DNA of 64,000 bases from Thiospirochaeta perfilievii. Its GTDB lineage: Bacteria > Spirochaetota > Spirochaetia > DSM-2461. The stretch is from assembly GCF_008329945.1 (NCBI RefSeq), contig NZ_CP035807.1, positions 1 to 64,000 of the forward strand, read 5' to 3'. This document shows positions 32,832 to 41,830 of this stretch, piece after piece. The notes beneath the pieces were generated by a model, which saw only the letters and a program-made list of their open reading frames with translations, did no database searches and had not been told where the DNA came from. Position 1 is the first letter of the stretch; the number at the start of each line of letters is the position of its first letter. The position numbers were made by a program, and so were the translations under genes.

Positions 32832-32861
32832 TTAACTAAATTGAATTAATTGGAGATTGAA

Positions 32862-33344
32862 ATGAAAGATAATTTTTACGACTTTAAGGCAAAAGATATA
32901 AACGGTAATGATGTATCAATGGAACAGTACAAAGGTAAATCTGTATTAATTGTTAATACAGCAAGTAATTGTGGTTTTACACCTCAATATGATGGTTTGC
33001 AACAGCTATATACAGAAAAAAAAGATGAAGACTTTATAATTCTAGGTTTTCCTTGTGACCAATTTGGCCATCAAGAACCTGGAGATGAAGGGGAAATTTA
33101 CGCTTTTTGTAGGAAAAACTTTGGTGTAACTTTCCCATTATTTTCAAAAATTGATGTAAATGGGCCCAATACACATCCAATATTTGATTATTTAAAAGAG
33201 AGTTTACCTGGAGTTATTGGAGGAAATATTAAATGGAACTTTACAAAATTTTTAATTGACTCTAAAGGGAACCCTGTTAAGAGGTTTGCACCAACAGATA
33301 CACCTGATAAGATAACAAAATACTTAAAAAAGAATAATTATTAA
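32862..33344 (+). CDS. Glutathione peroxidase-family thiol peroxidase (Cys type)
   Basis: Reduces peroxides with thiol reductants, most likely thioredoxin because the active residue is Cys rather than selenocysteine. 160 residues. Peroxidatic Cys in NTASNCGFTPQY, second family motif FPCDQFGHQEPG with probable resolving Cys, and KWNFTKFLID with the catalytic Trp/Asn. I chose ATG 32862: GGAG at 32852-32855 is 6 nt upstream, whereas the earlier in-frame TTG (32850) overlaps that ribosome-binding site. First gene of a two-gene operon with the OhrR-like regulator. Confidence 0.93.
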   Translation: MKDNFYDFKAKDINGNDVSMEQYKGKSVLIVNTASNCGFTPQYDGLQQLYTEKKDEDFIILGFPCDQFGHQEPGDEGEIYAFCRKNFGVTFPLFSKIDVNGPNTHPIFDYLKESLPGVIGGNIKWNFTKFLIDSKGNPVKRFAPTDTPDKITKYLKKNNY

Positions 33345-33356
33345 GGAGTGTTATTA

Positions 33357-33794
33357 GTGTCTGGTTACGAACAGCTTAAATTGGATAATCAACTATGTTT
33401 TCCACTTTATGCCACATCAAGATTAATTACTAAAATTTACCAACCACTTTTAAAGGAGTTAGACCTAACCTACCCCCAATACTTGATTATGTTAGTATTG
33501 TGGGAAGAGGACTCTCTAGCTGTAACTGCAATTGGGAAAAGGGTTATTCTTGAAACAAATACCATAACACCTCTGCTTAAAAGGTTAGAATCAAAGGGAC
33601 TTATAACAAGAGAAAAAAATATAGAGGATGAACGTAGTATTATTGTATCACTTACAGAGTTTGGAAAAGAGATGGAGAATAAAGCTTGCTTAATCCCTAT
33701 TAAACTCTTAGAAAACTTTCAAGATAAGTTTACAATATCAGAAGCTCAAGATTTAAAGAGAGGGTTAGATAAGCTTATAGATATCTTAAAATAG
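33357..33794 (+). CDS. ohrR: MarR-family organic-peroxide sensor, OhrR-like
   Basis: Winged-helix repressor of 145 residues. The N-terminal NQLCFPLYATSR places a Cys at residue 14, equivalent to the redox-active Cys15 of Bacillus OhrR, which is oxidised by organic hydroperoxides. The recognition helix region (ETNTITPLLKRLESKGLI) and wing (REKNIEDERSIIVSLTE) follow. Chosen start is GTG 33357, 8 nt after AGGAG (33344-33348); an earlier GTG at 33348 overlaps that site. It follows gpx by 12 nt. Usually OhrR controls ohr; here gpx takes that place. Confidence 0.88.
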   Translation: MSGYEQLKLDNQLCFPLYATSRLITKIYQPLLKELDLTYPQYLIMLVLWEEDSLAVTAIGKRVILETNTITPLLKRLESKGLITREKNIEDERSIIVSLTEFGKEMENKACLIPIKLLENFQDKFTISEAQDLKRGLDKLIDILK

Positions 33795-33861
33795 TTTTAA
33801 CCTAACTGTATATACGATTTTATGATTAGTGTTTATACTTAACATACAAAGAGGGGATAAA

Positions 33862-34419
33862 ATGAAAAATATTTTTTTGATAATAATAATATCACTTTCA
33901 ACTAACTTATTTGCACTTCTTCCAATTAGTCAACAGGAGGAAGATGGATTAATATGGCTTTTAGAATCTACAAAACTCTCTAAGGACATATATAATGATC
34001 TACACGAAATTTGGAATATTCAACTGTTTTCTAGTATTGAATTAGTAGAGGATAGAGATTATAAGAGTATAGAGAAACTATTAGATAAATATCTTATCAA
34101 AAACCCAATAAAAAGCATTAAAAAAGGAGAGTATTCTAGTCCATATATATCCAAGTTATATTCAGATTTTAGTCAAAAATATGATGATTCAGAGTATGAA
34201 GCGTTAAGAATTGCTGCAACCTTAGAAGATTTAATGATAAGTGATATTAATGATTTATTAGAAACCTCTACAAATGAAGAGTTTATTAATCTCTTTACAA
34301 CTTTAAGATATAGTGCAATAAGCCATATCCGTGGGATAAATAACCTAATGAAAAAGAAGTATAAGGTTGAGTATCAAGCTCAGTTTTTATCTATTTTAGA
34401 ATTAAAAAATATTTTATAG
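33862..34419 (+). CDS. Secreted DUF2202 (ferritin-like) protein
   Basis: Product of 185 residues from the ATG at 33862, which has GAGGGG upstream; an earlier in-frame start lacks one. Signal peptide MKNIFLIIIISLSTNLFA, then the DUF2202 pattern: EEDGLIWLLESTKLSKDIYNDLHEIW, YKSIEKLLDKYLIKNP, EYEALRIAATLEDLMISDINDL, and SHIRGINN near the end. Glu and His residues typical of the ferritin-like four-helix bundle are present in part; the first-helix EExxxxxD pattern is weakened (ESTKLSKD). Function in metal or redox homeostasis is suspected only. Confidence 0.75.
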   Translation: MKNIFLIIIISLSTNLFALLPISQQEEDGLIWLLESTKLSKDIYNDLHEIWNIQLFSSIELVEDRDYKSIEKLLDKYLIKNPIKSIKKGEYSSPYISKLYSDFSQKYDDSEYEALRIAATLEDLMISDINDLLETSTNEEFINLFTTLRYSAISHIRGINNLMKKKYKVEYQAQFLSILELKNIL

Positions 34420-34431
34420 CGGTTTATTTAG

Positions 34432-35343
34432 ATGAATATAATTGAAGTAAAAAATCTTAATAAAAAGTATGGAAACATTGAGGCGGTAAAAGATCTAACT
34501 TTTACAGTTAGAGAGAACTCTTTATTCGCTTTTTTAGGGCAAAATGGAGCTGGGAAAAGTACTACTATAAACATTATTTCAACACTGCTTAATTTTGACT
34601 CAGGTAGTGTAAAGGTAGCTGATAACATTTTAGGTAGTGATGATGATAGAATTAGAGCAACCATCGGTGTAGTATTTCAGAACTCAATGTTAGACGATTT
34701 ATTAACAGTAAGAGAGAACTTACATGTTAGAGGTTCATTTTATGGTTTAAGTTCTAAGGAAGTAGATTCTAGAGTTGATGAGTTAAATGCTTTATTAGAA
34801 ATTAAGTCCTACTATGGCCAGAAGTATGGGGAACTATCTGGGGGGCAAAAGAGGAAGGCCGATATAGCCCGAGCTCTAATAAATTGGCCCAAAATACTAT
34901 TTCTTGATGAACCAACTACTGGTTTAGATCCTAAAAGTAGAAGAGATATTTGGGAACTGATAAATCAATTACGAATAAAAAGAAATATTACAATTTTTTT
35001 AACTACCCACTATATGCAAGAAGTTCATGACGCTAATAAAGTAGTGATTATTGATAAGGGACGTATATTAGCTGTAGGTTCCAGTGAAGAGCTTAGAAAA
35101 AAATACTCCAATGATAGATTAAAACTACTCTACTCTAAAGAGTTAATAAGTGAATTAGAAAAAGATAATACAGAGTTCTATTTAATGAATGATACAATCA
35201 ATATAATATTAAAGGACTCTTTTCAAGGTATTTCTTATGTAAATAAATATAGAAGTTATATTAATGAGTTTGAAATAATTAAGGGAAATATGGATGATGT
35301 CTTTTTAAATGTTACAGGAAAAAATATAGGAAAAGAGTTATGA
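34432..35343 (+). CDS. ABC-2 exporter ATP-binding protein
   Basis: ATPase of 303 residues, DrrA/CcmA-like. Walker A GQNGAGKST, Q-loop VVFQNSM, signature LSGGQKRK, Walker B ILFLDEPTTGLD, H-loop TTHYMQE. The C-terminal 80 residues are the usual DUF4162-like tail. It overlaps the permease gene by an ATGA, so the two are translationally coupled. Probably exports a drug, lipid or peptide. Confidence 0.93.
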   Translation: MNIIEVKNLNKKYGNIEAVKDLTFTVRENSLFAFLGQNGAGKSTTINIISTLLNFDSGSVKVADNILGSDDDRIRATIGVVFQNSMLDDLLTVRENLHVRGSFYGLSSKEVDSRVDELNALLEIKSYYGQKYGELSGGQKRKADIARALINWPKILFLDEPTTGLDPKSRRDIWELINQLRIKRNITIFLTTHYMQEVHDANKVVIIDKGRILAVGSSEELRKKYSNDRLKLLYSKELISELEKDNTEFYLMNDTINIILKDSFQGISYVNKYRSYINEFEIIKGNMDDVFLNVTGKNIGKEL

Positions 35344-36218
35344 AAATGTTGATACAATTAGTTAAGAGGAATCTACTTTTATATCTAAGGGATAAAGCTT
35401 CTGTTTTTTTTAGTTTTTTATCAGTAATAATTATAATTGCGATGTATATACTATTCCTTGGAAATATGCAGATAAATGATCTAACCCGGAGTGTTGGAGA
35501 TATTCCTGGTTTAAACTGGTTAACAAGTAGTTGGATTATGGCTGGTATTTTAACAGTTTCAACTATAACAGTTCCACTAGCCTCCCTTGGAACTCTAATT
35601 AAGGATAAGGAGAATGGTAAAATTGTCGATTTTTATACATCTCCAATTAATAGAAACATTTTAGCTTTAAGTTATTTAATTAGTTCTTGGATTACATCAT
35701 TTATTATGGTTTTTCTAAATTTTATTATTGGGCAGATCTATGTTATTTTAAATGGTGGGGAATTTTTTAATATTATTAAAACCTTACAGTTAGTTAGTCT
35801 GTTTTCAATCTCAATAATCTCTTTTAGTAGTATGTTTTTTTATATAAGTCTATTTATGAAGAGCCAAAATGCCTTTGGACTTTTAAGTACTATTGTTGGA
35901 ACATTTGTTGGATTTCTAGGGGGTATCTATATTCCTATAGGAGTTTTAAGCAGTAGTATACAGAGAGTAATGAATTCTCTACCAACTTCACATAGTGTTA
36001 CTTTAATTCGTAGGACATATATGTCAGGAGCTATAAATAAAGTATTTAAAAATGCTCCTGAAGATATATATGACAATTATGCGGATATTTATGGATTAAC
36101 AATAAAAATTAATGATACAGATATTAGTGATACAATCATGTTATTATATCTAATTGTTTTTGCACTGTTTTTCTATATCTTAAGTATTATTAAATTAAAA
36201 AATACTAAGTTAATTTAA
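35340..36218 (+). CDS. ABC-2 type permease
   Basis: Membrane protein of 292 residues with six predicted transmembrane segments and the ABC-2 signature region (STIVGTFVGFLGGIYIPIG). Partner of the ATPase immediately upstream. Its last 9 bp overlap the end of the convergent rnfB-like gene. Confidence 0.9.
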   Translation: MKMLIQLVKRNLLLYLRDKASVFFSFLSVIIIIAMYILFLGNMQINDLTRSVGDIPGLNWLTSSWIMAGILTVSTITVPLASLGTLIKDKENGKIVDFYTSPINRNILALSYLISSWITSFIMVFLNFIIGQIYVILNGGEFFNIIKTLQLVSLFSISIISFSSMFFYISLFMKSQNAFGLLSTIVGTFVGFLGGIYIPIGVLSSSIQRVMNSLPTSHSVTLIRRTYMSGAINKVFKNAPEDIYDNYADIYGLTIKINDTDISDTIMLLYLIVFALFFYILSIIKLKNTKLI

Positions 36219-36512
36219 TCTATTCTTAATACCATATGAATCTAGAATCTCCTTTATTTTTTGCTTCCCTTCTGGTTTAGAAGGTTTGCAATTACTTATA
36301 GGAACCTCAGATCTAATTAGACCATTAGCCATACCTTCACAACCAGGGTATCCACAGGACCCACAGTTAAAGTGTGGTAGGGCGTTATATACTGCCACAA
36401 CTCTCTCATCAACTTTTACTTCAAATATTATTGAAGCAACTCCTAATAAAACTCCAATTAATAGTCCAACAACTCCTATAACTATTACCGCTGTAAGTAT
36501 AATACTATTCAT
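36210..36512 (-). CDS. RnfB-like protein reduced to membrane anchor plus one [4Fe-4S] domain
   Basis: About 100 residues: one N-terminal transmembrane helix, then the RnfB [4Fe-4S] domain CGSCGYPGC with a fourth Cys 16 residues later (ISNCKPS). Regular RnfB continues with a ferredoxin domain carrying two more [4Fe-4S] clusters; here the gene stops and immediately meets the convergent ABC permease, leaving no space. Start chosen at ATG 36512, with AGAGGTGA upstream; the in-frame GTG at 36521 overlaps that site. Last gene of the cyd-rnf unit. It can carry one electron at a time from or to a partner but cannot dock ferredoxin in the usual way. Confidence 0.8.
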   Translation of the reverse strand: MNSIILTAVIVIGVVGLLIGVLLGVASIIFEVKVDERVVAVYNALPHFNCGSCGYPGCEGMANGLIRSEVPISNCKPSKPEGKQKIKEILDSYGIKNRLN

Positions 36513-36687
36513 CGTTATCACCTCTCTGACTTGGATTTATACCGCATCCAGTGCTGCTACATCCATCACACTTTTTAAATGAGTCTTTCATCTCCTCTGG
36601 TAATTTCTCACGTCTATTTAATTTCCAACCGATAAAGTAGAAGGAAATTAGAAATAGAACTACTAATATACCAATAAAAACTCTCAT
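36505..36687 (-). CDS. Small Cys-rich single-pass membrane protein, NqrM-like in layout
   Basis: Product of 60 residues: transmembrane helix (about 3-20) followed by a charged linker and CDGCSSTGC near the C-terminus. Size, single helix and Cys cluster recall NqrM, the small factor needed to install iron in Na+-NQR, though direct homology is not provable by eye. It starts with a TAATG overlap on rnfA and overlaps rnfB, so it is co-translated with both. A role in assembling the membrane Fe centre between RnfA and RnfE is inferred. Confidence 0.65.
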   Translation of the reverse strand: MRVFIGILVVLFLISFYFIGWKLNRREKLPEEMKDSFKKCDGCSSTGCGINPSQRGDNDE

Positions 36688-37292
36688 TAAAACATACCTA
36701 CAAAACCATTAAACGCTAAAGCCATTACAAAGGCAGTTATTAATGCAATAGGAACACCCTTTAAACCTGCATGTATAGGTGTTTTACCTATCTGCTCTCT
36801 AATTAGAGAGAATAGATATATTACAAATGCATATCCAGCTGCAGTAAAAAAGCTAAATATAACCATAATTAGAAAATTCATACCTAGGGAGTAATCAAGA
36901 TCTATTCTCTCAATATTTAGAAGTGCAACACCTAAAACGGCACAGTTTGTAGTTATTAATGGTAGATATACCCCTAAACTTTTATATAGTCCAGGGAAGT
37001 ACTTTTTAATTACCATCTCCACAAATTGAACTAAGCCACTAACAACAAGAATAAATGAAATGGTGGATAAAAACTCTAAATTATATGGTTCTAAAACAAA
37101 TATATATAGGGAGTATGTTGCTATTGATGAGAGGGTTATAACAAAAGTTACCGCTAACCCCATACCAAGGGCTGACTCCTCCTTATTCCCTACTCCAAAA
37201 AATGAGCATAGACCTAAAAACTGAGTTAAAATTATATTTTGAATTAGAAATGCACTAAATGCAATTGATATTAAACCTACAACACTATTCAT
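36687..37292 (-). CDS. rnfA: RnfA-family integral membrane subunit
   Basis: Membrane subunit of 201 residues with six helices, homologous to NqrE. The two conserved half-helix Cys are present: FLGLCSFFGVG and TTNCAVLGVAL. In Rnf/Nqr these contribute to the intramembrane [2Fe-2S] cluster shared with RnfE/NqrD. The gene overlaps rnfE by 8 nt. Length is normal. Confidence 0.92.
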   Translation of the reverse strand: MNSVVGLISIAFSAFLIQNIILTQFLGLCSFFGVGNKEESALGMGLAVTFVITLSSIATYSLYIFVLEPYNLEFLSTISFILVVSGLVQFVEMVIKKYFPGLYKSLGVYLPLITTNCAVLGVALLNIERIDLDYSLGMNFLIMVIFSFFTAAGYAFVIYLFSLIREQIGKTPIHAGLKGVPIALITAFVMALAFNGFVGMF

Positions 37293-38004
37293 CTTTATCT
37301 ACCTTATCACTACTCTCTTTCTCTAACTTTTCCTTAGCTTCCTTTGCAAGCTTAGCCTTTTCCATTTTTTCTTTTATAAGTAGAGCTTTTTTAAGTTTCT
37401 CTTCCTTCTCTTTTTTTAATTTAATAGTATTTATCATCCATGCAATAAAACCAAACATTAAAAAAGCTCCTGAGGATTGAACAAATATAACAGGTGCATG
37501 GGCTGCATCAATAATCCTAAAATTAAGAAGCTCAACTGCTCCAGTTCCTATTAACTCCCTAAAAAAAGCAAGGGTTGATAAACCTAATAAAAAACCAAGA
37601 CCACTTGCAATTCCATCCATAAAGGAGTCCATAACTCCATTTGTTGATGCAAATGCTTCTGCCCTACCTAAAATAATACAGTTAACAACAATTAATGGTA
37701 GGTAGATACCAAGACTTTCAAATAAAGCGGGTAGATATGCCTCCATTAACATCCCTAAAACAGTAACAACTGATGCTATAACTGTAATGTAGACTGGAAT
37801 TCGTATATCCCCTGGAATTATCTTTCTTATTAAGGAGATTAGTGTATTAGTAATAGATAAAACAACTACAACACTTACCCCCATACCAATGGCATTACTT
37901 AGATTATTTGTTAATGCTAGGGTTGGACACATTCCTAAAAAAAGAACAAAGGTAGGGTTTTCCTTTACAATCCCCCTATATAAATCTGCGGAATAATTTT
38001 TCAT
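37285..38004 (-). CDS. rnfE: RnfE-family integral membrane subunit with charged C-terminal tail
   Basis: Homologue of NqrD/RnfE, 239 residues. Conserved NPTFVLFLGMCPTLALTN and VVNCIILGRAEAFA give the Cys pair for the intramembrane [2Fe-2S] site. After the last membrane helix there is a tail of about 45 residues made almost only of Lys, Glu, Ala and Leu, probably a cytoplasmic helix or coiled coil. Overlaps rnfG by 4 nt. Confidence 0.92.
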   Translation of the reverse strand: MKNYSADLYRGIVKENPTFVLFLGMCPTLALTNNLSNAIGMGVSVVVVLSITNTLISLIRKIIPGDIRIPVYITVIASVVTVLGMLMEAYLPALFESLGIYLPLIVVNCIILGRAEAFASTNGVMDSFMDGIASGLGFLLGLSTLAFFRELIGTGAVELLNFRIIDAAHAPVIFVQSSGAFLMFGFIAWMINTIKLKKEKEEKLKKALLIKEKMEKAKLAKEAKEKLEKESSDKVDKDE

Positions 38005-38546
38005 TTTAGAACCTCACTTATCAAGTGTTTAGAGCTTGACTCAATACTCTCTTTCATAGCCCTAGAGGAGTAAGTAGCTCCTGTAATCATATCAACTTCC
38101 ATCTCAGACGCGTTCTGATTATATATTTTATCTAAGTAGTTATCCTTAGTAATTTTATCACCACGGCCCTTAGTCTCCCGCATCTGAACATACTGAATTT
38201 TTACTACATTACCATCACTATCATAGGCTATTAAAAATATTATATTATCATTACGTCCTTCAGGGCTCATCTCGTAAACATAATTAACTCTATTATTATC
38301 TAGATTAACTAGATATAGAGAGTCACAGTTAGATACTCTTTCTAGATCATACTCCGCTGATATATCCTTATATTCAAAGGTTGTATTAGAAAAAATACTA
38401 TTTAAATTATCACGAACCTTCTCTATTCGTCTCTCAATGATTATTGGATCAACAATTACAAATACTGATGATACAAAAAGAGCACAAATAGATGCGGCTA
38501 TAAACAAAATACCACCATACTTTAGACTAGTTTTTAACATATTCAT
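38001..38546 (-). CDS. rnfG: RnfG-family subunit with covalent-FMN motif
   Basis: Membrane-anchored periplasmic subunit of 181 residues (NqrC homologue). One N-terminal helix, then an FMN-binding domain with ETKGRGDKI and the flavin-attachment motif ITGATYSSRAM, where the Thr would carry FMN by phosphoester linkage (ApbE-type flavinylation). No apbE lies in the window. Overlaps rnfD by 20 nt. Confidence 0.92.
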   Translation of the reverse strand: MNMLKTSLKYGGILFIAASICALFVSSVFVIVDPIIIERRIEKVRDNLNSIFSNTTFEYKDISAEYDLERVSNCDSLYLVNLDNNRVNYVYEMSPEGRNDNIIFLIAYDSDGNVVKIQYVQMRETKGRGDKITKDNYLDKIYNQNASEMEVDMITGATYSSRAMKESIESSSKHLISEVLK

Positions 38547-39672
38547 TCACCACTATTTTATTTTCAGAAATTCTCTGATCAAGAATGTTATTAACAAACA
38601 GACCTGATCCCAAAAGTATTAAGATCAAAATAACTCCACTAATAAAGCTGCTCTTATTTAATCCTAGCTTTTTACTAGTAGTTTTTTTATTTAGTAGTGG
38701 AACAAAAAGATTGGCAAATAGTAGGGCGTTAAAAACCCCGTCTGCATCCTTTCCAAGAAATCTTATTAATATAAATACTAATGAGAATATGGAAGAGTAG
38801 AACATTAAACCATAGTTAGAGAATGGTTTTGTAAAAGGATCTGTCATCATAAAAATAGATACAAATAAAAACCCACCAGCTAATATATTAAATAGGATAT
38901 AATTGATAGTTAGATTAAAATGTAGAGTTATAACACTTAACATTACAGTTGTTGTAACAAAAGTAAAAAGTAGTGGTTTAAGATCTAATGTTTTTCGCAC
39001 AATAAAGAATATTATTGCTAATATAAAAAAGATTGATGGTATAGAGAATAACATTCCATTATTAGGTAGAAAGAGTAGTTCTTTTATAGAGCTCATGTTG
39101 TTTAAAGAGACAATACCATTAGCCTGTAACTGCATTAATGGAGATAGAATCTCTTCAGAAAAATCTCTTTTAAAGATAATTTCAAGGAGATAGTTATCAA
39201 AGCTATTAGAAAAGTTTAATGTAACTAATAGAGGCCAGGATAGGGATACAAAAAGTTTACCAATTATAGCTGGGTTGAAAACGTTAAAAGAGTAACCACC
39301 AAAAACCATCTTCCCAACAAATATACTGATAAAAGCTCCAACTGCTACTACAAAAAGTGGTGTTCCTACAGGTAACAACAGTGCATAAATTATAGCAGTT
39401 ATTTCAGGTTTTGTAGTAACCAGAGACTCCTTAGCCTCTGACCTTGGAATATCTAACTTCTGAGATACAAATAAGATCTCAGTCTCTCTACAGATAAGAG
39501 TACTAACTAAAAATATTAAAAGAGACTTAATCCCATAGGCTAAATCATTAAATGAATTATATATAATAGATAAACCAGCAAAAACAAATAAAACCTTAAT
39601 AAAATCATTAACTGTTTTATCAAGCTCACCTTTTAGATGTGAAACTGGCAATTTATTTAGAATTACTTTCAT
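38527..39672 (-). CDS. rnfD: RnfD-family membrane subunit lacking the SGAT flavin motif
   Basis: Membrane subunit of 381 residues (NqrB homologue) with about ten helices. Family marks include VFNPAIIGKLF and FMMTDPFTKPFSNYG. The position where NqrB/RnfD carry (S/T)GAT with the FMN-bearing Thr reads EEILSPLMQLQANG here, with no Thr. So this copy probably lacks the covalent flavin. Overlaps cydB by one base (ATG start within the cydB stop), making the rnf part translationally linked to cytochrome bd. Confidence 0.88.
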   Translation of the reverse strand: MKVILNKLPVSHLKGELDKTVNDFIKVLFVFAGLSIIYNSFNDLAYGIKSLLIFLVSTLICRETEILFVSQKLDIPRSEAKESLVTTKPEITAIIYALLLPVGTPLFVVAVGAFISIFVGKMVFGGYSFNVFNPAIIGKLFVSLSWPLLVTLNFSNSFDNYLLEIIFKRDFSEEILSPLMQLQANGIVSLNNMSSIKELLFLPNNGMLFSIPSIFFILAIIFFIVRKTLDLKPLLFTFVTTTVMLSVITLHFNLTINYILFNILAGGFLFVSIFMMTDPFTKPFSNYGLMFYSSIFSLVFILIRFLGKDADGVFNALLFANLFVPLLNKKTTSKKLGLNKSSFISGVILILILLGSGLFVNNILDQRISENKIVVNEYVKN

Positions 39673-40679
39673 TATATTCTTCTCCCAAAACTAATATATT
39701 TCCATAATTGATACCCAATAACTATAGGTAAAAATACAAGGGATACACCAGATATAATTTTTAAAGTATGGAATGAAGATGCTGCATCAACTATTAATAA
39801 ACCATCATTTAAACTAATTGTAGAAGGAAGAATAAATGGAAAAGATGCAGTAAAACCACTAAATAAAACTAGGGATAATCCTAAAACTATGGATATGAAC
39901 ATAAGAACATATTTTTCTAAAAGATGGAAAACAAATTGTAGAATATAAAGAATCATTGAAGCTATAGGCATTATCCAAAGTAGTTTATTTGTTGAAAAAA
40001 GACCAACTTCAAATAGTTTATACTCATTTGTTAAAGATAAGAATATTAGAGCTACAACAAAAACTGCCGCTCCACTTATCCATAAAATTGATACTTTGGA
40101 AATTATTTTGAAATCCCTTCCTAGGGTAAGTTTGATCCATGTATAACCTAAAGAGATTGCGGATAGAACTAATAATAATCCCATTAACAGGGATGCCCTA
40201 GAAAATATTGTTAAAAAGTTCTCGGTCATTAGTTGATTTTTAATTGGTAGGCCAACAATTAAGTTGATTAAATATATTCCCTCTATAAATATAAGAATAA
40301 AACTTGATATCCCCCAGATTTTACTAACAAACTTTTGCCACTTAGAATCATCTGACTTATAAATTAATTCTATAGATGTGCCACGAAATATTACAGAAAA
40401 AAGAAGAAGAAAGATAGGAATATATAAGGCTTGGAGGGTTAGGCCATAGGCTTTTGGAAATGTTGCAAATAGTCCTCCTATAGCAACTATTAACCAGACT
40501 TGTATTCCATCCCAGAATGTACCAACACTCTCATTTATTTTTTTAAAACTGATATCATCAACTTTGAATGTTAAACTTAACATTCCAACCCCAGTAACAA
40601 ACATCTCTTGGCTTAAATATATACTCCAAACTAAAACTAATACAAAATACCAAATATTAGCTAATATTTCATGATTCAT
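39672..40679 (-). CDS. cydB: Cytochrome bd-type oxidase subunit II
   Basis: Membrane subunit of 335 residues, normal length, with eight or more helices. Conserved WDGIQVWLIVAIGGLFATFP is the family signature. The canonical N-terminal FDGFDLG region is changed (SQEMFVTGVG). It overlaps cydA by an ATGA and rnfD by one base. Confidence 0.9.
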   Translation of the reverse strand: MNHEILANIWYFVLVLVWSIYLSQEMFVTGVGMLSLTFKVDDISFKKINESVGTFWDGIQVWLIVAIGGLFATFPKAYGLTLQALYIPIFLLLFSVIFRGTSIELIYKSDDSKWQKFVSKIWGISSFILIFIEGIYLINLIVGLPIKNQLMTENFLTIFSRASLLMGLLLVLSAISLGYTWIKLTLGRDFKIISKVSILWISGAAVFVVALIFLSLTNEYKLFEVGLFSTNKLLWIMPIASMILYILQFVFHLLEKYVLMFISIVLGLSLVLFSGFTASFPFILPSTISLNDGLLIVDAASSFHTLKIISGVSLVFLPIVIGYQLWKYISFGRRI

Positions 40680-41830
40680 AGAGACTCCTCCTTCACAAGT
40701 GGTGAGGTTATTCTTTTCTTAATAAGATAAATACAACCAACGGCTAAAATAGCATACATAACAAAGATAGTAATAAGTGAGAACCATACCTGCATTACAG
40801 GGACATTACTTACAGCATCATTAGTTAACATTAATCCGTATACAACATAGGGCTGTCGTCCAACTTCTGCAACTATCCATCCTGCAAGTATTGCTATATA
40901 TGGTAGGGGAAAAGTCCATAGATAAAACTTCTGCATAACTGGAGAATTCATAAATCTTTTAAAAAATATAAGGGTATATATTGAGTAAAAGATGAAAAAT
41001 GTTCCAAGTCCAACCATTAAGCCAAAGCTTATAGTAACAAATGGAGAGCCTCCACTAATTGCATCAATCTTTGTTGATTGAATAGGAACTATGTAGTTAA
41101 AGTAAGAAAATCCTACAGCAGGCATTAATAGGGATGTAATCACTAATAGGATATTAGCTGGTTTGAAGCCTAACTCAAAGGTTTTAGCCTCCTGTGATTC
41201 TTTATCAATCTTAAGATATCTATATGCTCCTATACCAAGAACAAAGTATGAACCTAGAAGAATTGCTGAAATATTATTGTGAACTAACATATACCAAGCG
41301 TATGGATTAAATATTATCTCCTTGAAGTTCTCAACTAAAACTCTACTTCCATCCGCGGCTAATGCATATCCCACAGGATTTTGCATAAAACCATTTGCTG
41401 TAATAATCCATAGAGCTGAAAAATTAGTTCCAATAAAAATGAGAAGAACAGTTATAAACCTTAACCTATTAGACATCTTGTTCTTCTTAAATATCCATAA
41501 ACCTGTAAAGGTTGATTCTAGAAAAAAAGCAATCATTGCTTCAAATACCAATGGAGCACCAAAAACATCCCCCATATATATAGAATAGGCAGACCAGTTA
41601 GTACCAAACTGTAGACTCATTGTTATTCCAGTAACAATTCCAAAAGCATAATTGATAACAAACATATCACCGTAGAACTCAGATAAGTGTTTATACTTAA
41701 CCTCTTTACTTTTTAAATATTTATATTCATATATACAAACTAAAAAAATTAGGCCAATACTAAGTGGAACAAATAAAAAGTGAAATCCCACTGTAAAGGC
41801 AAACTGTATTCTACTTAAAATTTCAACCAT
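40676..41830 (-). CDS. cydA: Cytochrome bd-type oxidase subunit I with collapsed Q-loop
   Basis: 384 residues against 450-520 for usual CydA. Haem ligands and core motifs are kept: His in FTVGFHFLFVPL, Glu pair in FEAMIAFFLESTFTGLW, LQFGTNWS, His in YMLVHNN, Met in SFGLMVG and GRQPY. The Q-loop is cut to about 20 residues: QSTKIDAIS aligns with the E. coli QKTKLAAIE segment, so Lys252 is kept but Glu257 is Ser, and about 100 following residues are missing. E. coli Arg391 aligns with Gly. Known bd-superfamily members without a quinol site exist, so the electron donor may not be quinol. First gene of the cydAB-rnfDGEA-x-B unit; GGAGG precedes the ATG. Confidence 0.92.
   Translation of the reverse strand: MVEILSRIQFAFTVGFHFLFVPLSIGLIFLVCIYEYKYLKSKEVKYKHLSEFYGDMFVINYAFGIVTGITMSLQFGTNWSAYSIYMGDVFGAPLVFEAMIAFFLESTFTGLWIFKKNKMSNRLRFITVLLIFIGTNFSALWIITANGFMQNPVGYALAADGSRVLVENFKEIIFNPYAWYMLVHNNISAILLGSYFVLGIGAYRYLKIDKESQEAKTFELGFKPANILLVITSLLMPAVGFSYFNYIVPIQSTKIDAISGGSPFVTISFGLMVGLGTFFIFYSIYTLIFFKRFMNSPVMQKFYLWTFPLPYIAILAGWIVAEVGRQPYVVYGLMLTNDAVSNVPVMQVWFSLITIFVMYAILAVGCIYLIKKRITSPLVKEESL

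Follow-up and report, generated by a model that had tools for sequence, protein, structure and literature searches.

The window analysed here, the first 64,000 nt of contig NZ_CP035807.1 of Thiospirochaeta perfilievii (assembly GCF_008329945.1), contains eight minus-strand genes at 36210-41830 that encode both subunits of a cytochrome bd oxidase followed by a reduced Rnf-like complex. Assigned to families by Pfam and NCBIfam, they read cydA-cydB-rnfD-rnfG-rnfE-rnfA, a 60-aa Cys protein and a short rnfB (Table 1), with successive overlaps of 4, 1, 20, 4, 8, 1 and 17 nt. A preliminary description of the sequence had reported this order with overlap at every boundary, together with the lack of rnfC, an RnfB without ferredoxin domain, and conserved RnfA/RnfE Cys pairs and RnfG flavin motif. 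All of these features were borne out: overlaps span 1-20 nt, no rnfC lies in the operon, RnfB is 103 aa long and matches PF04060 only, RnfA and RnfE hold two Cys each, and RnfG reads DMITGATYSS. The operon contains no cytochrome c gene, and its cydA is the only one in the 3.70-Mb genome. A foreign origin was considered on compositional grounds and rejected, the GC content being 31.4% in the operon and 31.8% in the window.

In well-characterised cytochrome bd oxidases the electron source is quinol. In the E. coli enzyme the quinone head lies 6.7 Å from haem b558, under the periplasmic Q-loop (PMC13189123), and published Q-loops are either short, mainly 81-100 aa, or long, 149-220 aa (PMC4325964). 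Residue alignment of 37 CydAs, 14 of them Rnf-linked and 23 from spirochaete quinol oxidases (qOR), showed that the linked proteins keep all haem ligands and the proton-path glutamates of the qOR family, with H17, E97, E105, H184, M272, E322 and R325 (E. coli H19, E99, E107, H186, M393, E445 and R448) invariant in 14/14. They differ from that family in the Q-loop, which has shrunk to a link of 17-28 residues: the spacing between the equivalents of E. coli K252 and M393 is 17 residues in the window and in a second locus (L070), 22 in Izemoplasmatales and 28 in Acholeplasmatales, versus 74-80 in the 23 spirochaete qOR CydAs. Relative to E. coli bd-II CydA the missing block corresponds to residues 259-384, and it spans the positions of E. 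coli E280 and R298 as well as the Q-loop lid (R298 and lid as in bd-I, PMC13189123). The 14 Q-loop-less CydAs formed a single clade with 100/100 support, apart from the 23 spirochaete sequences. The CydA/CydB fold is nevertheless that of a qOR enzyme (best structural matches 7oy2, 7ose and 6rko); an AlphaFold2 (AF2) model of the window CydA (predicted local distance difference test score, pLDDT, 72) matched CydA of E. coli bd-II and bd-I, of mycobacteria and of Geobacillus, with a query template-modelling score (TMq) of 0.83-0.87 against the two E. coli proteins.

The preliminary description had proposed a search of other genomes for cydAB directly followed by rnfDGEA, and this order was found in L070 and in Izemoplasmatales, with a variant in Acholeplasmatales. 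Its absence from all relatives, which according to that description would have told against the pathway, is thereby contradicted. When the window CydA was used as query against 84,980 species genomes, five Q-loop-less CydAs were recovered, all with a downstream Rnf-type gene where the contig was long enough. Searches by order, covering the two orders of the metagenome-assembled genomes (MAGs) behind L071 and L074, identified Q-loop-less CydA in 8/90 Izemoplasmatales and 5/160 Acholeplasmatales genomes, and all CydA matches at E<=1e-20 in these 250 genomes were of this type. Two arrangements could be distinguished. Type I, cydA-cydB-rnfD-rnfG-rnfE-rnfA-(mini-protein)-short rnfB, is complete in nine cases, namely the window, L070 (a MAG) and seven Izemoplasmatales loci (L071, L087-L092). 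Type II, cydA-cydB-rnfD::rnfG fusion-rnfE'-rnfA'-nqrB-nqrC-nqrD-nqrE-nqrF, without nqrA in the cluster, is complete in four Acholeplasmatales loci (L100, L101, L102 and L104). Two further loci are partial, L073 (Acholeplasmatales, type II) being cut by the contig end and L072 (Izemoplasmatales) after cydB. Since the order recurs in other lineages, chance is excluded, and the linkage of cyd to rnf is well supported.

Within the window's own phylum, 53/393 genomes gave a CydA match, and only the window CydA was clearly Q-loop-less; the other spirochaete CydAs measured showed the usual two-part match with the Q-loop between the parts. No Rnf genes were seen beside 29 ordinary CydA loci, although this is weak evidence because the flanks covered only ~1.5 kb. 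RnfD matches in class relatives were considered as further cyd-rnf operons and rejected, as they belong to Nqr-like DGEA sets with NqrF that are unlinked to cyd. Such second Nqr-like sets (RnfD/NqrB, G, E and A with an NqrF of ~370 aa) occur at L054-L069, in most of which NqrA does not adjoin.

In Rnf and in the Na+-translocating NADH:quinone oxidoreductase (Na+-NQR), electrons pass outward from the small RnfB [4Fe-4S] or NqrF [2Fe-2S] centre through the membrane [2Fe-2S] cluster of RnfAE/NqrDE to the flavin mononucleotide (FMN) of RnfG/NqrC, and return via the FMN of RnfD/NqrB and riboflavin to RnfC-NAD or quinone (PMC12174285). The operon retains the outward leg, and the return leg (RnfC, RnfD FMN) is gone. 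The FMN-attachment threonine motif of RnfD ([ST]xAT) was seen in both canonical RnfDs examined (2/2) and in most of the Nqr-like B proteins of spirochaetes. It was missing from all type I RnfD (8/8), type II RnfD' (5/5) and type II NqrB (4/4); a single STAT string in RnfD' of L104 lies outside the aligned FMN site and is a chance occurrence. The RnfG flavinylation motif D..[STAV]GA[TS] was retained in 8/8 type I proteins and 5/5 type II fusions, and RnfG 7zc6 was the top Protein Data Bank match of the cyd-linked RnfG. All four cluster cysteines are kept in each type I RnfA/RnfE pair (8/8). No cysteine is left in type II RnfE'/A', and the adjoining NqrD/E hold all four. The type I RnfBs are short (98-113 aa) in every complete operon, with four cluster Cys in 8/8. 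Of the module's redox sites only the outer-face RnfG FMN is kept throughout, and, with the Q-loop gone, it would be expected to lie opposite haem b558. Trees of RnfA and RnfE grouped the sequences by module and were mutually congruent, with weak support at the deepest type I node. In L101 (3742-6186) and L102 (7192-10035), three and four tandem FMN_bind domains, respectively, are fused to RnfD, making these proteins candidates for a flavin wire.

Table 1 Position and basis of assignment of the cyd-rnf features in the window.
Feature	Position (nt)	Strand	Basis
cydA, 384 aa, Q-loop-less cytochrome bd subunit I	40676..41830	-	PF01654 372 bits, split 1-249 and 311-415
Q-loop deletion site: 17 residues, K254 (K252 equivalent) to M272 (M393 equivalent, haem b558 ligand)	41015..41071	-	
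cydB, 335 aa	39672..40679	-	PF02322, TIGR00203 above cut-off
rnfD-like, 381 aa, FMN-attachment site lost	38527..39672	-	PF03116
RnfD residues ~172-182, approximate FMN-Thr motif position, here SEEILSPLMQL	39127..39159	-	Alignment and motif survey
rnfG-like, 181 aa, one transmembrane (TM) helix and FMN_bind domain	38001..38546	-	PF04205 50.7 bits
RnfG flavinylation motif DMITGATYSS	38064..38093	-	GAT/GAS motif survey
rnfE-like, 239 aa, cluster Cys26 and Cys109	37285..38004	-	NF009070/TIGR01948 above cut-off
rnfA-like, 201 aa, cluster Cys29 and Cys117	36687..37292	-	TIGR01943 210.9 bits
60-aa single-TM protein with CxxCxxxxC	36505..36687	-	Matches no family
mini-rnfB, 103 aa: TM helix and one [4Fe-4S] domain, no C-terminal ferredoxin domain	36210..36521	-	PF04060 only
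Mini-RnfB [4Fe-4S] cysteines C53, C56, C61 and C78 (CxxCxxxxC..C)	36288..36365	-	

The same genome also encodes a complete, separate rnfCDGEAB operon (C1:760.5-765.5 kb), the only place in the genome where rnfC was found. Its RnfC is 442 aa long (TIGR01945, 517 bits), its RnfB has 271 aa with ferredoxin domains, and its RnfD carries DGVTGATPL, with DGVTGATPLGAV at the position where the cyd-linked RnfD reads SEEILSPLMQL. In local alignments the cyd-linked and canonical copies share 49% (RnfA) and 54% (RnfE) identity, which makes the cyd-linked set a divergent additional paralogue and not the remnant of a sole Rnf. The preliminary description had regarded a complete rnfC and full-length rnfB elsewhere in the genome as evidence against its pathway. 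Both are indeed present, but as parts of a self-sufficient six-gene operon, and among the other carriers one genome of 3.4 Mb (G435) has no full RnfC match and two (G438 and G439) have none at all; the canonical Rnf therefore does not explain the cyd-linked set away. In two same-genus genomes (G393 and G394, 81% and 71% complete), the one RnfD match each scored like the canonical RnfD. The second Rnf, the loss of the RnfD FMN-attachment threonine and the recurrence in other lineages all go beyond what had been described.

Quinone supply was assessed through the UbiA-family prenyltransferases, which matched in 14/14 control genomes. Among the 13 Izemoplasmatales and Acholeplasmatales carriers none had a match above the cut-off (34.2 bits), the one match seen scoring 16 bits; these organisms therefore apparently do not make quinone. 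Two UbiA proteins of G435 were considered as MenA and rejected, since they scored best to non-MenA models and below cut-off. For the host of the window the presence of quinone is uncertain. A 1,4-dihydroxy-2-naphthoate (DHNA) polyprenyltransferase scored above cut-off in its genome, in which neither MqnA/D nor MenD was found (a MenD-like match was rejected as acetolactate synthase). This gene shares an operon with those for ApbE, a type II NADH dehydrogenase (NDH-2, 611 aa) and a polyprenyl diphosphate synthase (L010:9103-13921; genome C1:439-444 kb). The set is similar to DmkA/DmkB/Ndh2/FmnB in the flavin-based extracellular electron transfer of Listeria and, as MenD and MqnA/D are lacking here, suggests salvage of DHNA. 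A second, truncated DHNA-prenyltransferase-like ORF of 167 aa, possibly a pseudogene, lies at L011:9018-9521 (genome C1:616.5 kb).

Taken together, these data suggest a single respiratory unit, encoded by the operon, in which O2 is reduced without quinol, a reading to which we assign a probability of about 0.6. Electrons would pass from mini-RnfB and RnfAE (or NqrF and NqrDE) to the covalent FMN of RnfG, on to haem b558 of CydA, and to O2. In type I the single [4Fe-4S] cluster of mini-RnfB would receive electrons from a low-potential donor in the cytosol, probably ferredoxin in its reduced form; in type II NADH would enter through NqrF. The electron would then move to the RnfA/RnfE [2Fe-2S] cluster (type II: NqrD/NqrE), turned to the outer face, and from there to the covalent FMN of RnfG; in type II it would reach NqrC first and the RnfG domains of the RnfD' fusion next. 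Because the normal return leg, through RnfD FMN and riboflavin to RnfC/NAD or quinone, has been dismantled, this FMN would instead reduce the outer-face haem b558 of CydA, which the loss of the Q-loop lid would leave uncovered, and b558 would pass the electron through b595/d to O2. Judged from the sequences, transfer from FMN to b558 is the simplest joint reading of the retained outward leg and the lost Q-loop, and the type II cluster resembles an NADH:O2 oxidoreductase complete in itself. The physical complex, the direction of flow, the FMN-to-b558 step, the type I donor and any pumping of ions (Na+) are what we infer from this pattern. The outward transfer would likely cancel the charge moved by proton uptake in bd. 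Energy conservation would then require an Rnf core that still pumps Na+, failing which the system would serve as an O2 scavenger. The membrane electron pathway from an Rnf core to oxygen reduction put forward in the preliminary description thus gains support from the order conserved across lineages, the loss of the quinol lid, the loss of the Rnf return half (RnfC, RnfD FMN) and the 0/13 carriers with a UbiA-family match above cut-off.

Several observations weigh against a quinol-free unit. Of the quinol site a QPxK stub persists, with Q251 and K254 (E. coli Q249 and K252) invariant in 14/14 linked CydAs; quinone may exist in the window host, given its DHNA polyprenyltransferase; several carrier genomes are incomplete MAGs; and the AF2 model of RnfD (pLDDT 41) gave no usable structure. 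The stub, together with the host's operon for DHNA prenyltransferase, polyprenyl synthase and NDH-2, would also fit a CydAB that remains a quinol oxidase but has its quinol site rearranged, with the Rnf-like module feeding the quinone pool or being co-transcribed for a related redox job; short-Q-loop enzymes may work by a different catalytic mechanism (PMC13189123). We consider this unlikely, as the E. coli E280/R298 region has been deleted with the lid, the Izemoplasmatales and Acholeplasmatales carriers have no UbiA-family match above cut-off, and the RnfD/NqrB FMN required on the way to quinone is likewise lost.

It is also conceivable, if rather improbable, that the Rnf-like module keeps some other outer-face target reduced, either an acceptor outside the cell or a sensor, in the way that Rsx acts on SoxR, and that CydAB shares the operon only through a common need under oxygen stress. 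Outward electron carriers are known among partial Rnf/Nqr systems and multi-flavin domains (PMC8238504), and glutathione-peroxidase-like and MarR genes lie nearby. This would, however, leave unexplained why the Q-loop is lost in every linked CydA and in 0/23 of those measured outside the linkage, and why cydAB stands strictly first in three lineages. Flow could in principle be reversed, Rnf being reversible (PMC12174285), with a periplasmic donor reducing RnfG FMN, haem b558 or both, and the Rnf module carrying electrons inward to a mini-RnfB that lacks the ferredoxin-docking C-terminal domain by which a type I donor might be recognised. The presence in type II of NqrF, an NADH-binding electron input module with FAD and 2Fe-2S that replaces mini-RnfB, and of an obvious sink in O2 at haem d, makes such reversal very improbable.

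The proposed quinol-free unit can be set beside several known systems. With Rnf (RnfABCDGE/Rsx) it shares homologous RnfD, G, E and A, the D-G-E-A-B order and, in type I, the [2Fe-2S] cysteines, RnfG FMN site and RnfB [4Fe-4S] shuttle domain; it differs in lacking RnfC, the ferredoxin-docking domain of RnfB and the RnfD FMN site, and in being joined to cydAB. Neither NqrA nor NqrF occurs in the type I cluster. Type II has NqrB-F of Na+-NQR directly behind cydAB-rnfDG-E'-A', but without NqrA in the cluster, the NqrB FMN motif or, in its carriers, a quinone prenyltransferase above cut-off, and its output appears to be cytochrome bd. The bd-type OR-C and OR-N reductases similarly have no quinol site; another donor is thought likely for them, and OR-N is thought to be cytochrome c-linked (PMC10839748). 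Compared by description only, OR-N differs in this cytochrome c link and its CydAA' pairing from the present CydAs, which have an Rnf/Nqr flavin partner and keep all b558 ligands. Two-subunit Nqr/Rnf-like outward carriers (Meheust 2021; 2024 follow-up) likewise represent a one-way half of Nqr/Rnf with the RnfD-type FMN site lost and covalent FMN on the outer face, but consist of two subunits only, with an NqrB/RnfD-NAD fusion and without RnfA/E.

Surveys of flavinylated systems cover such one-way carriers and, in the portions available, are silent on cytochrome bd and CydA (PMC8238504, PMC11334425). Published accounts of Izemoplasma name 'two Rnf complexes' and 'cytochrome bd' as separate items (PMC6256511, PMC8397711, PMC7761423), and the bd was assumed to be fed by a quinone pool (PMC8397711). 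A literature search that did not extend to Skennerton 2016 or Murali 2021 found no cyd-rnf linkage, and priority is uncertain. Tentatively, and a little short of even odds, the operons may represent a respiratory enzyme of a new class, which would transfer electrons from ferredoxin (type I) or NADH (type II) to O2 without quinone. A periplasmic covalent FMN would here replace quinol as direct reductant of bd, and quinone-lacking bacteria would have a terminal oxidase whose sole coupling site might be the pumping of Na+. If so, a quinone pool would be dispensable for membrane-bound oxygen respiration, and the retention of cytochrome bd by wall-less relatives of Izemoplasma and Acholeplasma without quinone genes would be explained. 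It would also raise the testable question of whether the outward half of Rnf/Nqr transports Na+ when the return half is missing, and the pattern of loss and retention pinpoints residues for mutation.

Additional genes were noted in and around these loci. The 60-aa Cys protein has an equivalent at the same place only in L070 (49% identical); that it is an NqrM-like maturation factor is speculative, as it matches no family. Directly upstream of cydA in Izemoplasmatales, and beside nqrF in one Acholeplasmatales MAG, lies a conserved membrane protein of 208 aa (L071:3755-4381, L087:3439-4065, L104:6469-7095), whose weak matches are ferric-reductase-like or VKOR-like and which is a possible haem-binding partner. 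A search for Rex-like operators returned 30 weak matches versus 20 expected, with no convincing one at the operon; promoter and terminator scans were uninformative. On the plus strand, at 32850-36218 of the window, a glutathione-peroxidase-like gene, a MarR regulator and an ABC-2 exporter pair all converge on the end of the operon, a neighbourhood possibly connected with oxidative stress.

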